A DNA stretch of 64,000 nt from Verrucomicrobiaceae bacterium. Lineage in GTDB: Bacteria > Pseudomonadota > Gammaproteobacteria > Pseudomonadales > CAMLJR01. The stretch spans positions 186,001 to 250,000 of the forward strand of contig JAQGNY010000005.1 in assembly GCA_028293825.1 (NCBI GenBank). The letters are read 5' to 3'. The notes below the pieces were generated by a model. It saw only the letters and a program-made list of their open reading frames with translations. It was not told where the DNA came from and did no database searches. Below, piece after piece: positions 459-43,448 of this stretch; the stretch's first letter is position 1, and each line of letters begins with the position of its first letter. Both the position numbers and the translations under genes were made by a program.

Positions 459-1109
459 TCACGCATGGTTTATTTCACTCGATTGCGCGCTGCTGGCTGC
501 AGCCAGCGCGAGCGCGTGCTTGCGAATGTCTGCCGGCCATTTCGCCAAACTTGTTTGAAACGTATCGATATCGCCAGCGAATAGCGCGCGCGTTGTGTCT
601 TCGAACGCGGGCTGATTACCTGCAATTGCCGTCATAAATTTATACGCTGCTTCACGCGCCTGGCGAATACGATCGTCTTCTTTGCTCGCACGCAGGGCGT
701 GCTCGACCAATTTGCGCAACGCCACCGAAGCGCCGCCGGTTTGCGCGGCTAGCCAATCCCAGTGCCGCGGTAACAGCGTGACTTCACGCGCGGTGACGCC
801 GAGCTTGGGGCGACCGGCAGTGCGCGGCGCCTCGGCAATTTCTGCTTCCTCTTCTGAATCGGCGGCACTGGTGTGCGGATAAGTAATTGCCAGACGCTTT
901 AACACGGTAGTTAGCGAGCCGCGCAGATCCAGTTCGATCGGTTGGCTGCTGGTGGCATCGAAAATCAAAATGCTCTGTCGATTATCGGTATCGACAAATG
1001 TTTTTACCTTGGTTGTGACGTCGCGTGCGGGACCAGAGGCGATACGTTTGTTACCGGCAAAGGCGATCCAAGTCGGTTGAGAAGTTATTGTCATCGAATT
1101 AACTGCCAT
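459..1109 (-). CDS. DUF2239 family protein
   Basis: A 216-residue cytoplasmic protein matching the uncharacterised DUF2239 family (COG3644) as I recall it. It has an N-terminal WIAFAGNKRIASG segment, a central GRPKLGVTAREVTLLPRHWDWL block that is characteristic of the family, an alanine-rich helical middle, and a C-terminal KWPADIRKHALALA stretch. No catalytic motif is recognisable. The open frame extends 25 codons further upstream, but those codons lie within and upstream of a near-consensus promoter at 1125-1154, so the start must be ATG 1109 or ATG 1094; neither has a strong Shine-Dalgarno sequence. Function is unknown. The two palindromes in its promoter suggest control by a dimeric repressor. 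Confidence 0.75.
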   Translation of the reverse strand: MAVNSMTITSQPTWIAFAGNKRIASGPARDVTTKVKTFVDTDNRQSILIFDATSSQPIELDLRGSLTTVLKRLAITYPHTSAADSEEEAEIAEAPRTAGRPKLGVTAREVTLLPRHWDWLAAQTGGASVALRKLVEHALRASKEDDRIRQAREAAYKFMTAIAGNQPAFEDTTRALFAGDIDTFQTSLAKWPADIRKHALALAAASSAQSSEINHA

Positions 1110-1124
1110 TGAAAGTAAGCTGAA

Positions 1125-1170
1125 ATTATACCCGGGTAAAATATGGTCAGTCAATATTACCCGGGTAATA
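1125..1170 (-). promoter_or_regulatory. Sigma-70 promoter with two palindromic operators
   Basis: On the minus strand a TTGACT -35 box (1154-1149) and a perfect TATAAT -10 box (1130-1125) are separated by 18 bases. A 16-base perfect palindrome TATTACCCGGGTAATA (1155-1170) abuts the -35 box on its upstream side. A second CCCGGG-centred palindrome, TACCCGGGTA (1129-1138), overlaps the -10 box and the spacer. The two centres are 29 bp apart. The layout fits repression of the DUF2239 gene by a dimeric regulator; which regulator is not visible here. Confidence 0.75.
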
Positions 1171-1269
1171 ATTATCGAGGTCATCGGGCAGCCTTCAGCC
1201 CCGGTTCAGCATGAACTCTATTAACTCGCGCCACTCTTATCTCGTACTGCTCGCCCTGGGACATTTTCC

Positions 1270-3191
1270 ATGAGTCATTCAATTACGCGCGTGCTGGGCT
1301 TTATCGGCATTTTTATTTTTGCAGTGCCGGTATTTGCCGATCCGCCGGCGCGCGTCGGTCGCATCAGTTATATCGAAGGCAAGGCGTCGTTTAGCGCGGG
1401 GCATGCGAGCGCCGAAAATGCCGATGACGATGCGAATCGAGACGATGCCGATCAAGCCGGCGCTAATCAAGAAAGCGCCAATCGAGACAATGTCGATAGA
1501 GACAGTACCGATAGAGGCAGTGCCAATCAAAGCGGCGCAGCGGATGACGATCAATGGAGCGATGCGACGCTGAATTATCCGATAACCACCGGCGATAGTT
1601 TGTGGACCGAGCCGAACGCGCGACTTGAATTGCAAATCGGTTCGGCGGAAGTACGCATGGATCATTCGACCGAATTCAATGTCGTGCAACTCGACGATGA
1701 CGCGACGCAATTGCGCGTCGATCAGGGCGTGATAAATGTGCATTTACATGCGGTGCCGACCGGCGGTATTTCGGTAATAACCCCGCAGGGCCGAATCGAT
1801 TTAGTGAAACCCGGCAGCTACCACATTGACGCCGGCTATCCGCCTGCCGATGAGGTGACCGATAACAACGCCGGCCAAAATAATTCCTCCGCAAATAACG
1901 ACGATTTACAAAACTCAAAAGTAAGAATCACCACGCTCGAAGGCGAGGCGCAAATTAACGAAGCACGCGCTCATTTGGTGATATTGCCGGGCGAAGGCGC
2001 GGTCATCGGCGGCGATCCGGTGAATTACACCTTGATCGAAGATAACGCGACGCCGTTCGACGATTGGGCGCTGGCGCGCGAACATCGCGAAAGTGCCGCT
2101 GAGTCGACCCGTTATGTATCGCCGGAAACGACCGGTTACGAAGATCTCGATCGCAACGGCCAGTGGGTGCGCGATAGCGATAACGGCACGGTGTGGTATC
2201 CGGCGGCGGTCGCGGTGGATTGGGCGCCGTATCGTTACGGCCATTGGGCGTATGTCGGCCCGTGGGGCTGGACCTGGATCGACGACGCCTCCTGGGGCTT
2301 TGCGCCGTTTCATTACGGCCGCTGGGTGCGCGTGCACGAGCGTTGGGGATGGTGCCCGGGTGCAATTGCGCCGCGCCCCGTTTATGCGCCGGCATTGGTG
2401 GCTTTCGTCGGCGGCGTGCACGGCAGCGTGTCGATCGGTATCGGCGCAACGCGCGGCCCGGTCGGATTCCATTGGGACCGCGCGAACCGTTTCATCCCTA
2501 TTACAGGGCGAGCCCGAATTACATCCGCAACGTCAACATTACGCACGTCGATAAAACGGTCATCAATAACATCACCGTCCATTCGATTCAGCCGGGGCAT
2601 TTTGCCAATCAACATGCCGCGACAGTGGTATCGGCGGAAACCTTCACGCATGCGCGACCGGTTCGCGGTGCGGTAATTTCCGTGCCGGAGGGACAATTAG
2701 CACAGGCGCATACCTTGCCTGCGTTAAATCATTTGCCGCCTGCGCGCAGCTTTAACGCCAGCGCATCACAGCCCGGATTTAATGCGCCACATCCGCGCGA
2801 CGAACAACCTTTTTCGCGTGACGAGCCGCGTGCTTATGAACAACCGCGTGCTGCCGCTTCATCTCCCTCACCGCGAGCGTTCGACCAGTCGCGCTCGGTG
2901 CCATCGAACATGCAGTCGCGTCCTAACCCTGGCAATAACCCCGCAGAATTTCCCCACCCACGTCCGCCGGTGAATGCGCAGCGGATGCCGACTGAATCGG
3001 AACGCCCGCGCCCGATTGCGCGCCCGCCCGAACATCGGCCTGCGGATATGCAGCGCGCGGCACCGCCGCCGCATCCGGTGCAAAACTCGCAAATTAAACC
3101 GTCGCCGCAAGGTTGGCAGCGCGTGCCGGTGCAGCAAGGACGTGGCGCGGTGCATGAACAAGCGCATGCGCGCGAGCATCATCACGAGTGA
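1270..3191 (+). pseudogene. FecR/DUF6600-type envelope protein gene, broken by one frameshift
   Basis: The first frame (1270-2676) encodes a signal peptide ending VPVFA, a FecR-like beta domain (residues about 95-180, with LRVDQGVINVHL), and a DUF6600-type region rich in Trp, Tyr and Gly (GHWAYVGPWGWTWIDDASWG, then HYGRWV and RPVYAPALVAFVGG). At about 2466-2470 homology continues in the next frame as PLGPREPFHPYYRASPNYIRN and then a Pro/Arg/Gln-rich tail ending at 3191. One missing base near GGATTCC explains the break. Residues 51-90 are an acidic tract with five-residue periodicity. The role is probably in the periplasm or on the cell surface, but is unproven. The break may be real decay or a sequencing error. 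Confidence 0.75.
1420..1539 (+). repeat. Degenerate 15-base repeats coding an acidic five-residue tract
   Basis: Within the FecR-like gene, eight consecutive units of about 15 bases encode blocks such as NRDDA, DQAGA, NQESA, NRDNV, DRDST, DRGSA and NQSGA. The spacing of Asp/Asn and Arg/Gln is regular. The pattern recalls pentapeptide repeats but lacks their central Leu/Phe. It sits between the signal peptide region and the FecR-like domain and is probably a flexible linker. Confidence 0.6.
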
Positions 3192-3812
3192 ATATCTGAA
3201 CAGTTTCGTGCAGTCAGTATTAAATCTGATTGGCGTGTATGGGCGTGTGCGAATTGCGGCGCAAAAATCGTTAAACAGGATTGCGCCGCGCATTGAATAA
3301 TTAGCTGCTCGAAAACTTAATCATCGATTTTAATTTCGCGCGAAATCATTCGTAGCGCGCAAGTCCAAAACCTTACATTCAGCTGACAAAAAATCGCGCT
3401 CCCTTCTCCGAAGTAATAATTAACCGCACCGATTTAAATCCCGTCGTAAATATTCGACTCGATCGTTATTGACCGAGCGGTTGCTATGAATTTAATAATC
3501 GCGCGAAAAATCCAATAACGTTAAATTGCGCGAGCGTTATGACGTCGATAAATTCGGTGCGATCTTCGCTCGGCATACAATTCGCATGACGCCGCAGGGT
3601 GTTAAAGCACGAAGCGTTTAGAAAATCAGGCGATAAGATATTGGGATGAGGGCGCAGATGAGAGCACAGACCAGAGTGCGCGCTGAAATTTGCGTTATAG
3701 TCGCGCGAAATTTGCGACAACGAACATTTACAACAACAATGCCGCCCGGCCGATATTACGTCGATAACTCGACACTTCATTCCACCCCCATTTTTTGGAG
3801 TAGGAGACCGCA
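3192..3812. other. Intergenic stretch, no gene recognised
   Basis: About 620 bases between the FecR-like gene and potF. A minus-strand open frame covers part of it (3484-3813), but its Cys-, His- and Asn-rich translation resembles no family, and the potF ribosome site sits on the opposite strand in the same bases. A perfect TTTCGCGCGAAA palindrome lies at about 3333-3344. A good ribosome binding site (GGAGTAGGAG) precedes potF. I could not fix a promoter with confidence. Confidence 0.5.
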
Positions 3813-4919
3813 ATGAAAAAATTCTGGACCTCTTTAATCGCCGTCGCTGCGGCGCTGAGTGGCACCATCGGGAGCGCGCACGCGGAGGAGGAAAAAGTCC
3901 TCAATGTCTACAACTGGTCGGATTACATCGCCGAAGATACGTTGCAGAAATTCACCAAAGAAACCGGCATCAAAGTCGTCTACGACGTGTTCGACAGCAA
4001 CGACACGCTCGAAGCTAAATTGCTGGCGGGCAACACCGGTTACGACGTGGTGGTGCCATCGCTGAATTTCCTCGGCCGCCAGATTCAGGCCGGCGTGTTT
4101 ATGCCGCTCGATAAATCCAAATTGCCGAACAGTAAAAATCTCGATCCGCAATTGATGGCGCGCATCGCGACCAATGATCCGGATAACGCGCACGCGGTGC
4201 CGTATTTAAAGGGCACCACCGGCATTGGCTTCAATGTTAAAAAAGTGAAAGAGATTCTCGGCCCGAACGTGCCGCTCGATAGTTGGGACCTGATTTTAAA
4301 ACCGGAGAATATCGCCAAGCTGAGCAAGTGCGGCGTGTCGATGCTGGATGCGCCGGCGGAAGTTATTCCCACCGTGCTCAATTACCTCGGCGAAAAGCCC
4401 AATGGTTTCGACCCGGCATTAATTCAGGGCAAGGCGCAAGAGTTGTTGATGAAGCTGCGCCCATCGGTGCGCTACTTTCACTCCTCGCAATATATAAACG
4501 ATTTGGCCAACGGCGATATTTGCGTGGCATTGGGTTGGGCCGGCGATGTGTTGCAGGCGAAGCGTCGCGCCGAGGAAGCGAAGAACGGTGTTGAGATTGC
4601 GTACATCATTCCGAAAGAAGGCGCGGGTATTTTCTTCGATATGCTGGCGATTCCGAAAGATGCCAAGCATCCGCAAAACGCACTCAAGTTCCTCAACTTT
4701 TTGATGCGGCCGGATGTCATCGCCGATATCTCCAATTTCGTTTCGTACGCGAATGCAGTGCCGGCGTCGAAACCGTTATTGGATAAGAAAATCCTCAATA
4801 ATCCGGGCGTGTATCCGTCGCCGGAAGTCCAAGCGCATCTGTTTACCTTTGCCGTGGTGCCGCCGAAAATCGATCGAATTTACACGCGGGTCTGGACCAC
4901 AGTCAAAACAGGCAAATAA
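3813..4919 (+). CDS. potF: Putrescine-type ABC transporter substrate-binding protein
   Basis: A 368-residue periplasmic binding protein of the PotD/PotF/SpuD class that captures polyamines for the transporter encoded downstream. The N-terminal signal peptide ends near GSAHA. The mature protein opens with VLNVYNWSDYI, the hallmark start of this family, followed by FTKETGIKVVYDVFDSND and the hinge region GYDVVVPS. Trp and Asp residues typical of the polyamine pocket are present (GWAGDV). Length is normal for PotF. It is the first gene of potFGHI and has a strong ribosome site (GGAGTAGGAG). A terminator-like hairpin follows it, which would give more binding protein than permease, as is common. 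Putrescine is the likeliest ligand because the operon has the PotFGHI form; spermidine cannot be excluded. Confidence 0.93.
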   Translation: MKKFWTSLIAVAAALSGTIGSAHAEEEKVLNVYNWSDYIAEDTLQKFTKETGIKVVYDVFDSNDTLEAKLLAGNTGYDVVVPSLNFLGRQIQAGVFMPLDKSKLPNSKNLDPQLMARIATNDPDNAHAVPYLKGTTGIGFNVKKVKEILGPNVPLDSWDLILKPENIAKLSKCGVSMLDAPAEVIPTVLNYLGEKPNGFDPALIQGKAQELLMKLRPSVRYFHSSQYINDLANGDICVALGWAGDVLQAKRRAEEAKNGVEIAYIIPKEGAGIFFDMLAIPKDAKHPQNALKFLNFLMRPDVIADISNFVSYANAVPASKPLLDKKILNNPGVYPSPEVQAHLFTFAVVPPKIDRIYTRVWTTVKTGK

Positions 4920-4935
4920 AATAGCCGCCTTCTGG

Positions 4936-4963
4936 AAAGGGGTGCTCCGGCGCCCCTTTTTTG
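4936..4963 (+). terminator. Hairpin with T-tract between potF and potG
   Basis: AAGGGGTGC (4937-4945) pairs with GCGCCCCTT, with one G-T pair, and a run of T follows immediately. It lies 17 bases after the potF stop. Partial termination here would raise potF expression above the rest of the operon. Confidence 0.75.
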
Positions 4964-5155
4964 TTTCAAGTAAATCAGCGTATTTGTCGCCAGTAAGCGC
5001 TCGCATTAGTACGCTTATGGCAGCGTGTTGAAAATTTGCCGGCGGCGATCAGCAAGGCGCTGAGCTAATCTTGGTTTTCAGCCTGTCGGGAATTACGCGA
5101 TGTTGTTGGTTGCGAGCTACTGTGCACACTAAACGAATGGAGAGATAAACGGACA

Positions 5156-6286
5156 ATGACCGCTGCCAAGGCTGCTGCGCCGAGCCCCGTATTGCCGACG
5201 GATAACTACGTCACCATCAACAACATCAGCAAAACGTTCGACGGCTTTCGCGCCGTGCATGACGTGAGCTTCAGTATTCGCAAAGGCGAAATCTTCGCGT
5301 TGCTCGGTGCATCTGGCTGCGGCAAATCAACCTTGTTACGCATGCTGGCCGGCTTCGAAGCCCCGACCGCCGGCACTATTTTGCTCGACGGACTCGATCT
5401 CAACGGGCTGCCGCCGTACCGGCGCCCGATCAACATGATGTTTCAATCCTATGCGTTGTTCCCGCATATGACGGTCGAGCAAAACATTGCGTACGGCCTG
5501 AAGCAGGACAAATTGCCGAAGCACGAAATCAACGACCGCGTGCAGGAAATGCTGAAGCTGGTGCGGATGGAGACTTACGCCAAACGCAAACCGCATCAGC
5601 TTTCCGGCGGCCAGCAGCAGCGCGTCGCGCTCGCGCGCAGTTTGTCGAAAGGCCCAAAATTATTACTGCTCGACGAGCCAATGGGCGCACTCGATAAAAA
5701 ATTGCGCACGCAAATGCAGCTGGAAGTGGTGCGCATCATCGAGCGCCTCGGTGTCACCTGCGTGATGGTGACGCACGATCAGGAAGAGGCGATGACGATG
5801 GCTCATCGCATCGCCATTATGGAAGCGGGGCAGATCAGTCAGATCGGTACGCCGGCTGAAATCTACGAGCAACCGAATTGCCGTTACACCGCGAGCTTTA
5901 TCGGCTCGGTGAATTTATTCGAAGGCACGCTCGACGAAGATCAAATCGATCACTGCACGATAAAAACCGCCGACCTCGACGTGCCGATTTATGTCGGTCA
6001 CGGTGTCACCGGCATGACTGGAATGCCGTGCGCATTCGCGGTTCGTCCCGAGAAAGTATCGATGAGTAAAACCCGCCCCGAGCAGATGCACAATCACGTG
6101 GCCGGCATCATTCAAGACATCGCTTATTTGGGCAGCGAATCGGTTTATCACGTGCGCTTGCAGAGCGGCAAAATGGTGCAGGTCGAACTCGTCAATGCCG
6201 TGCGTTGGGGCAGTGAACGCTTTGCGGCGGACGACGCCGTGTGGATTTATTGGGAAGACGAAAGCGGCGTGGTGCTCACTGCATGA
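5156..6286 (+). CDS. potG: Polyamine ABC transporter ATP-binding protein
   Basis: A 376-residue ATPase that powers polyamine import from the cytoplasmic face. Walker A is GASGCGKST (residues about 50-58), the Q-loop region is NMMFQSYALFPHM, the signature is LSGGQQQR, Walker B is LLLLDEP and the H-loop is VTHDQEEAMT. The C-terminal third (about 270-376) is a TOBE-type regulatory domain containing FAVRPEKV. Length and N-terminal extension match PotG. The start follows GGAGAG at a normal distance. Its stop overlaps the start of potH (ATGA), showing tight coupling. Confidence 0.95.
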   Translation: MTAAKAAAPSPVLPTDNYVTINNISKTFDGFRAVHDVSFSIRKGEIFALLGASGCGKSTLLRMLAGFEAPTAGTILLDGLDLNGLPPYRRPINMMFQSYALFPHMTVEQNIAYGLKQDKLPKHEINDRVQEMLKLVRMETYAKRKPHQLSGGQQQRVALARSLSKGPKLLLLDEPMGALDKKLRTQMQLEVVRIIERLGVTCVMVTHDQEEAMTMAHRIAIMEAGQISQIGTPAEIYEQPNCRYTASFIGSVNLFEGTLDEDQIDHCTIKTADLDVPIYVGHGVTGMTGMPCAFAVRPEKVSMSKTRPEQMHNHVAGIIQDIAYLGSESVYHVRLQSGKMVQVELVNAVRWGSERFAADDAVWIYWEDESGVVLTA

Positions 6287-39905: not shown

Positions 39906-40044
39906 GAAATTCTTCTAATTGGAAAAGGCGGTCAAACACGGCGTACAGTGCCGGTTTTGCCTGAGTTTTAGCGAGCGTGGATAATAAAGCATTCACTGCG
40001 CGATGGCTAAACTTGTTGTCCGCACCCTGCCGAGCCGAATGTTT

Positions 40045-41010
40045 ATGTCTGATTTTCAGCGCTGGATTGCCGCCGTTTTAAACGCCGCTGCCGATTCTTT
40101 CGAGTTGCAACCGGCTTCCGCCGACGCCAGTTTCCGCAGCTACTATCGCGTGCTGATCGATGGCCGCAGTCTTGTCGCGATGGATGCCAGCGCCGAGCGC
40201 GCCAGTTGCACACCGTTCGTGAATATCGCGCGGCTGCTCGCCGGCGGCGAGGTGAATGTGCCGGCCATCATTGCCGAAAACCTCGACGCCGGTTGGCTAC
40301 TGCTCAGCGATCTCGGCTGCCAAACTTATCTCGACGTATTAAATACAGACAATGCCGACGAATTATTCGACGCCGCGATCGGCGCATTAATCGCGCAGCA
40401 GCACATTGCCGCGCCACCCACTTTTCCGCAATACGATGCGGCATTGCTGCGGCGCGAACTCGAATTATTTCCAGAGTGGTATTTGCAGCGCCATTTGGGC
40501 TTAACGATCGACGCTGCGTTGCGTGTGCAGCTCGATACTATTTTCGATACGTTGATTGGGCAGGTGTTGAAGCAATCGCGCGTGCTGGTGCACCGCGATT
40601 TTATGCCGCGCAATTTAATGCTCAGCGAGCCATTGCCCGGTGTGCTCGACTTTCAGGACGCCGTCGTCGGCCCGATCAGTTACGACGCGATTTGTTTGTT
40701 TAAAGATGCATTTATCAGCTGGCCGGAAGCGCGCGTTGAGCGCTGGTTAAAAAATTATTGGCAGCGGGCGCGCGAAGCGCAGTTGCCGGTGCCGAATTCA
40801 TTCGCCGATTTTTATGCCGATTGCGATTACATGGGCGCGCAGCGGCATTTGAAAGTCATCGGTATTTTCGCGCGTATTTGTCATCGCGACGGCAAGCCTA
40901 AATATGTCGGCGACGTGCCGCGCTTTTTTAATTATTTGCACGGCGTGTGCGAGCGTCGACCGGAATTATCTGCGCTGGCCGCTTTGCTCGAAAAAATTTC
41001 CGCATTATGA
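40045..41010 (+). CDS. amgK: N-acetylmuramate/N-acetylglucosamine kinase
   Basis: A 321-residue aminoglycoside-phosphotransferase-fold kinase that phosphorylates MurNAc and GlcNAc at the anomeric carbon during peptidoglycan recycling. It shows SADASFRSYYR, VHRDFMPRNLM with the catalytic Asp, and LDFQDAVVGPISYD for metal binding. The start at 40045 (MSDFQRWI) fits the family; an ATG at 40003 would add 14 residues and cannot be ruled out, since neither has a strong ribosome site. The stop overlaps murU (ATGA), the next enzyme of the pathway. Confidence 0.92.
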   Translation: MSDFQRWIAAVLNAAADSFELQPASADASFRSYYRVLIDGRSLVAMDASAERASCTPFVNIARLLAGGEVNVPAIIAENLDAGWLLLSDLGCQTYLDVLNTDNADELFDAAIGALIAQQHIAAPPTFPQYDAALLRRELELFPEWYLQRHLGLTIDAALRVQLDTIFDTLIGQVLKQSRVLVHRDFMPRNLMLSEPLPGVLDFQDAVVGPISYDAICLFKDAFISWPEARVERWLKNYWQRAREAQLPVPNSFADFYADCDYMGAQRHLKVIGIFARICHRDGKPKYVGDVPRFFNYLHGVCERRPELSALAALLEKISAL

Positions 41011-41678
41011 AAGCGATGATTCTCGCCGCTGGTCTCGGCACGCGCATGCGTCCGCTGACAGACCACATACCGAAGCCGATGTTACTGGTTGCTGGCAAGC
41101 CGCTGATCGAGCATCACGTACAGCGTTTGGTAAAAGCCGGTGTTACTAACATCGTCATTAATCACTATTATCTCGGCGAACAAATCGAAAATTATCTCGG
41201 CGATGGCGAGCGCTTTAATTGCCATATTCAATACTCGCGTGAAGAGCAAGTGCTCGATACCGGCGGCGGTATTTTTCGCGCGCTACCATTGTTGGGTACT
41301 GATCCGTTTATCGTCATTAATAGTGATGCCTGGACCGATTATCCGCTGCAGAATTTATTCGATAAATTATCCGGCCATGCGTATTTGGTGTTGACGGATA
41401 ATCCGCCGCAAGCGACCGGTGAAAATATTTTTTTGCAAAAAGACAGCACGCTAAATATGAGCGGCAACGGCACGCGCTTAACGTGGACCGGTATTCGTGT
41501 ACTGCATCCGGCTATTTTCGACGGCTGCATCGACGGTGCATTTCCGTTCGTACCGCTGTTAAAGCAAGCGATGGCTGCAGGTTTAGTGAGTGGCGAATAT
41601 TACGGCGGCCAATGGCTCGATGTCGGCACGCCGGAGCGCTTGCTCGAAGCGAATCATTTTGCCATTTCCAATCGATAA
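41007..41678 (+). CDS. murU: N-acetylmuramate alpha-1-phosphate uridylyltransferase
   Basis: A 223-residue nucleotidyltransferase that makes UDP-MurNAc from MurNAc-1-phosphate, bypassing early peptidoglycan synthesis and so bypassing fosfomycin's target. The N-terminus MILAAGLGTRMRPLT...PKPML is the sugar-nucleotidyltransferase signature; INSDAWTDYP holds the metal-binding Asp. The start overlaps the amgK stop. Confidence 0.92.
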   Translation: MKAMILAAGLGTRMRPLTDHIPKPMLLVAGKPLIEHHVQRLVKAGVTNIVINHYYLGEQIENYLGDGERFNCHIQYSREEQVLDTGGGIFRALPLLGTDPFIVINSDAWTDYPLQNLFDKLSGHAYLVLTDNPPQATGENIFLQKDSTLNMSGNGTRLTWTGIRVLHPAIFDGCIDGAFPFVPLLKQAMAAGLVSGEYYGGQWLDVGTPERLLEANHFAISNR

Positions 41679-41698: not shown

Positions 41699-42535
41699 AT
41701 GATTTTTAGCAAATATCAAGCGCTGGGAAATTCTTATCTGGTACTGCCCGTCGACCGTCTCGGTATGCCGCCGTCGGAAAGTGAAATTTCGCGATTGTGC
41801 GACAGGTATTTCGGCGTCGGCAGCGATGGCGTGTTACTCGGGCCGTTGCCCTCCGCTGTGGCCACGTACAAATTGCGCATCTTTAATCCCGATGGCAGCG
41901 AAGCAGAAAAAAGCGGCAATGGCTTGCGCATTTTTTGCAGATATTTATGGGATCAAGGTTTAGTTGGCGATCAGTTGTTTTCAATCGAGACGCTAGGCGG
42001 CGTGGTCGCCGCACAGGTACTCGATAGTGGTCTTCGCGTTCAAATTGAAATGGGTAACGTCAGTTTTTTAAGTACAGATATTCCGATAACCGGAACGTTG
42101 CGCGAAGTGATTAACGAAACCATTGCAGTCGATGGCGCCGAATTTCAATTTTGCGGCGCTACGGTGGGAAATCCTCATTGCGTAATTCCAGTGGCGCAAG
42201 CGTCTGAGGAGATGGCGCGTCGTTATGGGCCGCTGCTCGAATGCCATTCGCTATTTCCCAATCGCACTAATGTTCAGTTCCTGCAAATTATCGATCGCAA
42301 TAATATTCGGATTGAAATTTGGGAACGCGGTGCCGGCTATACCTACGCATCGGGCAGCAGTAGTTGCGCAGCGGCGGCGGTTGCTTATCGATTGGGGTTG
42401 TGCGATCAACATATTGCAGTGCATATGCGCGGTGGAATTATCCATATCGCGCTTGATAAATTATTCAATGCCGCGATGACCGGCCCCGTGATTAAAGTGT
42501 GCGATGGTGCAGTTGTGCCGGAATGTTTCAGCTAA
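41699..42535 (+). CDS. DapF-like protein lacking both catalytic cysteines
   Basis: A 278-residue member of the diaminopimelate epimerase fold. It keeps GNSYLV at the N-terminus, FGVGSDG, FNPDGSEAEKSGNG, VGNPHC, FPNRTNV and ERGAG. In epimerases two cysteines act as base and acid, in motifs CGNG and CGSG. Here the first is Ser72 (AGC, 41912-41914) and the second Ser218 (TCG, 42350-42352). A Cys-based racemisation is therefore unlikely. I have a recollection of other database proteins with the same double Ser form annotated dapF, but cannot verify it. It follows murU by 20 bases with its own GGGAGC ribosome site. A normal dapF probably lies elsewhere. Function not assigned. Confidence 0.85.
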   Translation: MIFSKYQALGNSYLVLPVDRLGMPPSESEISRLCDRYFGVGSDGVLLGPLPSAVATYKLRIFNPDGSEAEKSGNGLRIFCRYLWDQGLVGDQLFSIETLGGVVAAQVLDSGLRVQIEMGNVSFLSTDIPITGTLREVINETIAVDGAEFQFCGATVGNPHCVIPVAQASEEMARRYGPLLECHSLFPNRTNVQFLQIIDRNNIRIEIWERGAGYTYASGSSSCAAAAVAYRLGLCDQHIAVHMRGGIIHIALDKLFNAAMTGPVIKVCDGAVVPECFS

Positions 42536-42590: not shown

Positions 42591-43448
42591 ATGACCCGCT
42601 CGCGAATTATTATTTTTACCTGTTTGGCGATGTTGGCTTTTGCCAGCAACTCGCTGCTGTGTCGGCTTGCGCTAAAACATACTGCTATCGATGCCGCCAG
42701 TTTCACCGCCATCCGATTGGTGTCCGGTGCGGCCACGCTATTTATTCTGGCGCGCTTGCGAAACAACAATGCGCTCGGTCGCGGCAATTGGTGGTCTGCG
42801 TTGTCATTATTTATTTATGCGGCTGGATTTTCTTTTGCCTACGTGAACTTGCCTGCGGCGACCGGTGCGTTGCTTTTATTCGGTTCCGTGCAAGCCACCA
42901 TGATCGGTCATGGTCTTTATGTTGGCGAACGCTTTTCACGCTTGCAGATAATCGGTCTCGCATTGGCGTGTTGCGGGTTAATCAGTTTGTTGTTGCCGGG
43001 GTTGTCGGCGCCACCGTTGCGCGGATCGTTGCTAATGCTGAGTGCTGGATTAGCGTGGGGCATTTATTCGTTGCGCGGGAAAAAATCGGGCGATCCGATA
43101 CAGGTTAATGCGGGCAATTTTTTGCGCGCCGTACCCATCGCCATCGTGTTGAGTTTATTGACGCTATCAACGGCTTCCTTCGATATGGCGGGAATTGGTT
43201 TTGCGATTGTTTCTGGCGCAATTGCTTCCGGTATCGGCTATGCGGTTTGGTACGCGGCGTTACCTGCATTAAAGGCTACGCATGCAGCGATTGTGCAGTT
43301 GAGCGTTCCAATTATTGCGGCGGGCGGCGGCGTTATTTTTTTAAGCGAGCCCATGACAATGCGTTTGGTGCTGGCGTCAGTGGCGGTACTGGGCGGAATA
43401 GCGCTGATTATTACCGCAAAGACAAGTGCTACGAAAGGCGCTCACTGA
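42591..43448 (+). CDS. EamA/DMT family transporter
   Basis: A 285-residue inner-membrane protein with about ten hydrophobic helices arranged as two EamA repeats (residues about 1-130 and 145-280). Landmarks are AFASNSLLCRLAL near the start, AATGALLLFGSVQATM at the end of the first repeat, and GYAVWYAALPALKATHAAIVQLSVPI in the second. The substrate is unknown; members export amino acids, metabolites or drugs. It starts 55 bases after the dapF-like gene in the same direction. Confidence 0.85.
   Translation: MTRSRIIIFTCLAMLAFASNSLLCRLALKHTAIDAASFTAIRLVSGAATLFILARLRNNNALGRGNWWSALSLFIYAAGFSFAYVNLPAATGALLLFGSVQATMIGHGLYVGERFSRLQIIGLALACCGLISLLLPGLSAPPLRGSLLMLSAGLAWGIYSLRGKKSGDPIQVNAGNFLRAVPIAIVLSLLTLSTASFDMAGIGFAIVSGAIASGIGYAVWYAALPALKATHAAIVQLSVPIIAAGGGVIFLSEPMTMRLVLASVAVLGGIALIITAKTSATKGAH

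Follow-up and report, generated by a model that had tools for sequence, protein, structure and literature searches.

A homolog of diaminopimelate (DAP) epimerase, DapF, in which serine replaces both catalytic cysteines was identified in the window, i.e., the whole stretch of 64,000 nucleotides analyzed here (positions 186001-250000 of contig C21). Proteins carrying this pair are referred to below as Ser/Ser, and those carrying the two cysteines as Cys/Cys. Judging from the sequences, Ser/Ser DapF is one clade standing in for DapF and not a single odd gene. Its members are fairly likely to be genuine DAP epimerases using Ser72 and Ser218 in the cysteines' place, of which the genome of the window carries an extra copy. 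In a wider reading, whose chances seem to us evenly balanced, a thiol-free DAP epimerase would have evolved once, an invariant Lys71 and a remodeled second shell tuning its Ser-Ser pair; it would have replaced the dithiol enzyme in whole lineages and would occur in about ten phyla. The Ser/Ser protein probably still works, though the known chemistry predicts that it barely would. Papers given below by PMC number are cited from excerpts of their text.

The gene, its surroundings, and the host genome

The protein carries the motifs EKSGNG (KSGNG at residues 71-75) and YASGSSS (ASGSS at 217-221) and the Pfam domain PF01678, and its score against the NCBIfam model TIGR00652 places it in the DapF family (Table 1). 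The fold predicted by AlphaFold2 is that of DapF: the best solved matches are DAP epimerases, the closest being an inhibitor-bound cyanobacterial DapF (9mro_A, Z 38.8, rmsd 1.9 over 272 residues). The two catalytic cysteines are replaced by Ser72 and Ser218, as the initial annotation had stated; the reading frame is open and the same residues occur at both positions in all 73 members of the clade. The protein is thus a DapF-family homolog that probably acts in a DapF-like manner, and not a canonical DapF.

Table 1. Features of the window, the host genome, and the other loci discussed in the text
Feature	Location	Position	Strand	Remarks
amgK-like sugar kinase	window	40003..41010	+	upstream; NF045759 319.5 bits, below cut-off 550
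murU	window	41007..41678	+	NF045761 283.5 bits, cut-off 250
Ser/Ser DapF-family gene	window	41699..42535	+	open frame, 278 aa; TIGR00652 226.9 bits, cut-off 114.65; AlphaFold2 pLDDT 95.6
Lys71	window	41909..41911	+	73/73 Ser/Ser; commonest in 143 Cys/Cys: Met 95, Gln 25
Ser72	window	41912..41914	+	aligns with catalytic Cys73 (H. influenzae numbering); codon AGC; predicted helix 73-85 begins right after
Ser218	window	42350..42352	+	aligns with catalytic Cys217; codon TCG; predicted helix 219-231 begins right after
Ser221	window	42359..42361	+	73/73 Ser/Ser; Gly in 143/143 Cys/Cys
EamA-family transporter	window	42591..43448	+	PF00892 81.8 bits
Cys/Cys DapF	host contig C21	47-859		same contig as the window
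lysA	host contig C21	959-2176		adjoins Cys/Cys DapF
Cys/Cys DapF, partial	host contig C31	4-666		cut by contig start
LL-DAP aminotransferase	L060			directly upstream; NF004937 641.5 bits, cut-off 585
lysA end; LL-DAP aminotransferase in two frames	L069			upstream; downstream, NF004937 220.2 and 404.6 bits
lysA	L071 (genome of L069)			upstream
alr (alanine racemase); amidohydrolase; lysA	L074			upstream; downstream; farther downstream
leuB and asd	L063			downstream
mpl-like ligase	L050			ends at Ser/Ser gene start; 315.8 bits, below cut-off 388.7
murA	L068			upstream
Aminotransferase, amino-acid adenylation enzyme, MFS exporter	L059 (Pseudomonas orientalis)	743-5938		upstream of Ser/Ser gene
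LuxI-type acyl-homoserine-lactone synthase	L056 (uncultured Cellvibrio, MAG)	5369-5968		directly upstream of Ser/Ser gene
Cys/Ser DapF homolog	L109 (P. orientalis)	G076:C20:210191-210970		

Since murU, the Ser/Ser gene, and the eamA gene lie on the same strand, separated by gaps of 20 and 55 bases, the Ser/Ser gene is likely to be co-transcribed with amgK-murU. The second dapF with Cys motifs that the initial annotation had proposed looking for is present beside lysA on the same contig, and its product is 34% identical to the Ser/Ser protein; another Cys/Cys DapF gene is a partial copy at the start of contig C31 (loci L001, L008, and L129). The absence of any other dapF, considered earlier, is therefore not the situation in this genome. 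The partial copy is 61% identical to that on C21, and either is a paralog or belongs to a contaminant contig. The role of the window's own Ser/Ser copy is less certain than that of the clade, since the same genome also holds a Cys/Cys DapF.

Each of 55 other genomes of the host's order, one of them from the same genus, gave one match to the window protein, at 30-38% identity; the 29 matches whose residues were read are Cys/Cys, and the other 26, taken by score, lie at 106.5-153 bits, inside the Cys/Cys range. None of the sampled relatives in the order thus has the Ser/Ser gene, which suggests that the genome of the window acquired it as an extra copy beside its Cys/Cys DapF. The GC content of the gene (0.502; GC3 0.502) is lower than that of the window (0.545), which is no proof of transfer, since murU is equally low (0.501; GC3 0.545). 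A plasmid origin was also considered and rejected: a tblastn search of 72,556 plasmid records matched 114, all at less than 60% identity (37.8% at best), and the best 15 of these 114 were either annotated as dapF or carried no annotation.

A single clade carries both serines

Scanning the genome contigs yielded 38 loci from other genomes, all Ser/Ser and 47-62% identical to the window protein. When these were combined with the window protein, a class survey (see below), the relatives of the order, and extra copies, the resulting 217 distinct homologs comprised 73 Ser/Ser, 143 Cys/Cys, and one Cys/Ser protein, and no Ser/Cys form was found among them. The Cys/Ser protein (L109) is a third, very divergent DapF homolog of Pseudomonas orientalis located on a long branch. 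In a phmmer comparison with the window protein, the 72 other Ser/Ser proteins scored 214.6-388.4 bits versus at most 184.8 bits for the 143 Cys/Cys proteins, leaving a gap between the two groups. In the maximum-likelihood tree of the 217 sequences, in which most Cys/Cys sequences come from the class covered by the survey (101) and from the order of the host, and thus cover part of the diversity of DapF, all 73 Ser/Ser proteins fall on one side of a single branch (SH-aLRT 100). This supports the earlier suggestion that the joint replacement at both positions reflects a distinct subfamily and not decay. With 73 Ser/Ser proteins among the 217, chance can be set aside. Decay of the gene was ruled out by the invariance of both serines and by the 38 other loci; a sequencing error at both codons, which had been mentioned as a possible objection, was excluded by the occurrence of the pair in these same loci.

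The members of the clade are labeled as belonging to ten phyla (Verrucomicrobiota, Fidelibacterota, Thermodesulfobacteriota, Myxococcota, Bdellovibrionota, Sumerlaeota, Acidobacteriota, Spirochaetota, Bacillota, and Pseudomonadota), although single labels may be wrong since many of the records are metagenome bins. Position 72 is encoded by AGY in 49 members and by TCN in 24, and position 218 by TCN in 63 and by AGY in 10. Both serine codon families therefore occur at both positions, serine being held while the codon family switches.

Active-site residues and the chemistry of two serines

In the DapF of H. influenzae, DAP is held by Asn11, Asn64, Asn157, Asn190, Glu208, and Arg209 (PMC8225329), and similar residues are described in the DapF of Anabaena (PMC12039745). 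All six ligands are invariant in the Ser/Ser clade: Asn63, Asn158, Asn191, Glu209, and Arg210 are kept in 73/73 proteins, and Asn11 in the 72/72 reaching that column. Other positions set the clade apart. Lys71, Ser221, Ile207, Trp208, and Gln193 are fixed (73/73), while Ser222, Ile78, and Tyr214, the last of which replaces Glu, occur in 70-72 of the 73 proteins; all of these residues are rare or absent in the Cys/Cys set.

The column of Asn158 also differs among the Cys/Cys proteins: it contains Val in 101/101 of those from the surveyed class (survey loci L176-L310) and Asn in 41/42 of the others, as well as in the 34 newly fetched Ser/Ser proteins of the survey. In the DapF of Chlamydia, for which racemization of glutamate is also reported, one residue of the pocket is altered (V145; PMC5885031), and it appears to occupy the position of Asn157, a ligand of the distal carboxylate. 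Since the Val of the surveyed Cys/Cys proteins appears to match this V145, these may be relaxed enzymes.

In canonical DapF, the proton is transferred between a thiolate and a thiol placed on opposite faces of the substrate. Cofactor-independent racemases pose a model problem, namely how a thiolate can remove an alpha-proton with a pKa of about 29 (PMC12039745). Single Cys-to-Ser mutants of the 2,4-diaminobutyrate racemase PddB have less than 0.1% activity, and a similar result is cited for Mt-DapF (PMC8225329); Cys-to-Ser variants are prepared since they impede catalysis and facilitate crystallization. A serine base in the DapF fold nevertheless has a precedent, since the proline racemase family includes natural Ser-Cys epimerases and Ser-Thr dehydratases (PMC4113996). 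Among the exceptions described in a review is a Cys/Thr aspartate/glutamate racemase (PMC8142540). No natural Ser/Ser DapF was found among the matches listed for the open-access literature, which leaves most subscription papers outside, nor is such a case mentioned in the excerpts of the histidine racemase paper (PMC11602996) or of the above review (PMC8142540).

The substrate, the activity, and the parts played by Lys71 and by the two serines are inferred here. LL-DAP would be bound in the usual closed cleft, and one alpha-carbon would be inverted by a two-base 1,1-proton transfer in which Ser72 and Ser218 are the two groups. Their hydroxyls might be acidified by two helix N-termini and by neighbors specific to the clade, namely Lys71 and perhaps Tyr214 and Ser221. 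A possible gain from this arrangement would be resistance to oxidation: the DapF of Corynebacterium is inactivated by a disulfide formed between its two cysteines (PMC5296763).

The serines might not be the proton-transfer groups at all, the base lying elsewhere and being most likely Lys71, in a one-sided or Lys/Ser mechanism leading to epimerization, isomerization, or elimination. We hold this to be possible, though doubtful. Lys71 is present in 73/73 members and adjoins Ser72, and a Lys is used by PrpF, which has the same fold; the products of the proline racemase family, in which Ser-Cys gives an epimerase and Ser-Thr a dehydratase (PMC4113996), point in the same direction. However, the two serines share the invariance of Lys71 and are placed at two helix starts in the predicted structure, which speaks against this view.

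Distribution of the Ser/Ser protein and demand for meso-DAP

The 38 related loci represent 37 genomes (L069 and L071 come from the same one), in which DapF-family members were searched for with TIGR00652: in 26 the Ser/Ser protein is the sole match, while in 11 it occurs together with a Cys/Cys DapF. The survey covered 141 genomes of the class to which G062 belongs (completeness filter 90), 136 of which gave exactly one TIGR00652 match and five none. These 136 reads (30 loci, 105, and G062 from the first set) showed a one-or-other distribution: 35 genomes contain only Ser/Ser, 101 only Cys/Cys, and none both. Taking the two sets together, in which most genomes are drafts and G062 is common to both, 60 distinct genomes have no DapF-family match other than the Ser/Ser protein; these are not 60 independent events because of their shared ancestry. 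In the 11 other genomes and in that of the window, a DAP epimerase role is not forced, since a Cys/Cys DapF is also there.

Besides DapF and Ddh, we know of no route to meso-DAP. The DAP dehydrogenase Ddh (TIGR01921) exceeded the cut-off in 3 of a group of 38 genomes (G058, G062, and G077) and in 3/35 Ser/Ser-only genomes of the class (G062, G116, and G169), with weak matches below the cut-off in ten and two more genomes, respectively. It was thus over the cut-off in 5/60 Ser/Ser-only genomes, leaving 55 without it. In those, either the Ser/Ser protein is therefore the epimerase or some unknown epimerase exists.

DapL, which makes LL-DAP, was found over the cut-off (TIGR03542) in 15 of the 38 genomes, including nine of the 26 Ser/Ser-only ones of the first set. 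Eight of these nine have no Ddh over the cut-off, and in seven of the eight LysA was matched with E < 1e-70, in some cases below the curated cut-off; in G068, DapL was found and the profile search gave no LysA match. LysA was matched in 36 of the 38 genomes (21 over the cut-off). Among the 32 Ser/Ser-only class genomes with no Ddh over the cut-off, all 32 match LysA (TIGR01048), 19 over the cut-off and 13 below it, the match in G163 being weak (1.5e-33). MurE exceeded the cut-off in 27 of these 32 genomes, and in all 27 the top-scoring MurE (second copies in G188 and G207 being left out) carries DNPR, which we take to be the meso-DAP signature of this ligase. No MurE over the cut-off was found in the other five (G205, G191, G163, G149, and G098), which may lack peptidoglycan or may have a divergent MurE. 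The whole set of an LL-DAP route, LysA, and a meso-DAP MurE in the absence of Ddh is therefore found in part in many sole-copy genomes, but not in all of them.

Some chemical data are available on Opitutaceae. DAP was detected by GC/MS, with its isomer unspecified and along with ornithine, in Opitutus terrae and three Lacunisphaera strains, in amounts nearly ten times below that reported for E. coli; DL-DAP was not seen by TLC in the three Lacunisphaera strains. DapL and DapF are attributed to one strain in the same study (PMC5303756).

Gene neighborhoods of the Ser/Ser loci

Neighboring genes were clustered over the 38 loci and the window, using about 6 kb on each side (less on short contigs) and 7-8 kb for the window. 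No neighbor is common to the 39 loci, and no family besides the gene itself occurs in more than five of them; those found in four or five owe their count to L048 and L051-L053, which are Opitutia loci closely related to each other, or to antisense frames. Since ORF calling missed the Ser/Ser gene in 6/39 loci (L039, L043, L045, L047, L054, and L064), statements about neighbors are confined to the loci named. The comparison of tree and neighborhoods recommended in the initial annotation thus gave a single clade with no common partner. As regards the link with cell-wall recycling it had put forward, amgK-murU in the window and the mpl-like gene at L050 speak for it and the lack of a shared neighbor against it, so that the link is a weak one.

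In some loci, the neighbors are LL-DAP aminotransferase or lysA genes, in an operon-like arrangement (Table 1). Elsewhere, specialized products are possible in view of the neighbors in P. orientalis (L059) and Cellvibrio (L056). The aminotransferase at L059 is nearest to LL-DAP aminotransferases, with a score below the cut-off; this locus looks like a small biosynthetic cluster, which might use a DAP-like building block.

Function of the clade

The reading of the clade as a DAP epimerase is based on the sole copy in 60 genomes, few of which have Ddh, on the presence of LysA, MurE, and DapL in part of them, on the DapF fold with its invariant DAP ligands, and on the LL-DAP aminotransferase or lysA neighbors in some loci. 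The view implied earlier, that two serines speak against DAP epimerase work, is not supported by these data, given 60 other genomes having the Ser/Ser form only and intact DAP ligands. In lineages without a Cys/Cys DapF, the Ser/Ser enzyme would supply meso-DAP for lysine and peptidoglycan; in the genome of the window, the extra copy would act on DAP or a close analog and is probably co-transcribed with amgK-murU. Against this reading stand the near loss of PddB activity upon Cys-to-Ser replacement, the coexistence with Cys/Cys DapF, the neighbors at L059 and L056 that hint at specialized products, the low DAP content of Opitutus terrae and three Lacunisphaera strains, with no DL-DAP seen by TLC in the latter (excerpts of PMC5303756), the MurE and LysA gaps in some sole-copy genomes, the draft state of most genomes, and the lack of a common neighbor.

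Several of these points would also fit an enzyme that epimerizes or racemizes some other amino acid, the sole-copy genomes making meso-DAP by means of an unknown, unrelated enzyme. We consider this unlikely. The effect of Cys-to-Ser changes in relatives, the Cys/Cys DapF present in 11/37 genomes and in the window's own, the specialized neighbors in P. orientalis and Cellvibrio, and clade-specific changes in the active site such as Glu to Tyr at 214 would all be compatible with a different substrate, whereas the invariance of all six residues that hold DAP (among them the ligands of the distal carboxylate), the operon-like LL-DAP aminotransferase and lysA neighbors at some loci, and the one-or-other distribution in the surveyed class speak against it, and it needs a second, unseen enzyme in the 55 genomes with no Ddh over the cut-off. 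It is highly improbable that the protein is a pseudoenzyme with a regulatory role, limited to the binding of DAP or of a partner (RppH, for instance): both canonical catalytic residues are gone and RppH is bound by the DapF of E. coli (structures 6d13 and 6vck, judging by their titles), but 60 genomes have no other family match and serine is conserved at both positions despite codon switching.

If the clade does consist of DAP epimerases, a natural Ser/Ser enzyme would show which surroundings let an alcohol replace a thiolate, and a thiol-free DapF would escape the inactivation by disulfide formation to which DapF is known to be subject. Cysteine-directed DapF inhibitors might spare Ser/Ser bacteria. 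The standard family model TIGR00652 calls the Ser/Ser proteins DapF over its cut-off and is blind to the Cys-to-Ser change.

Comparison with known systems

The Ser/Ser proteins resemble DapF (TIGR00652, PF01678) in their fold (Z 38.8 to 9mro_A), length, family score, and DAP-binding residues, and differ from it in having Ser in place of both cysteines and Lys71, Ser221, Trp208, Tyr214, Gln193, and Ile78 in place of other residues. The O-ureidoserine racemase DcsC (7vdy) shares the fold (Z 37.6, rmsd 1.7) and scores 159.7 bits with the clade profile, below most DapF structures and above the DapF of Corynebacterium and Mycobacterium; DcsC is a Cys enzyme. PddB, another relative of DapF, has a Cys pair at the matching places and lacks the distal-carboxylate ligands (PMC8225329), whereas the Ser/Ser clade retains the equivalents of Asn64, Asn157, Asn190, and Arg209, all four in 73/73 proteins, and has serines at the very positions where Cys-to-Ser changes leave PddB nearly dead. 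Two enzymes of Agrobacterium vitis, a Ser-Cys 4-hydroxyproline epimerase and a Ser-Thr trans-3-hydroxyproline dehydratase (their structures are probably 4lb0 and 4k7g, assigned by titles only), belong to the same fold group (Z about 26-27) and have a catalytic Ser, but they are 14-17% identical, act on other substrates, and show no Ser-Ser pair in the excerpts of PMC4113996.
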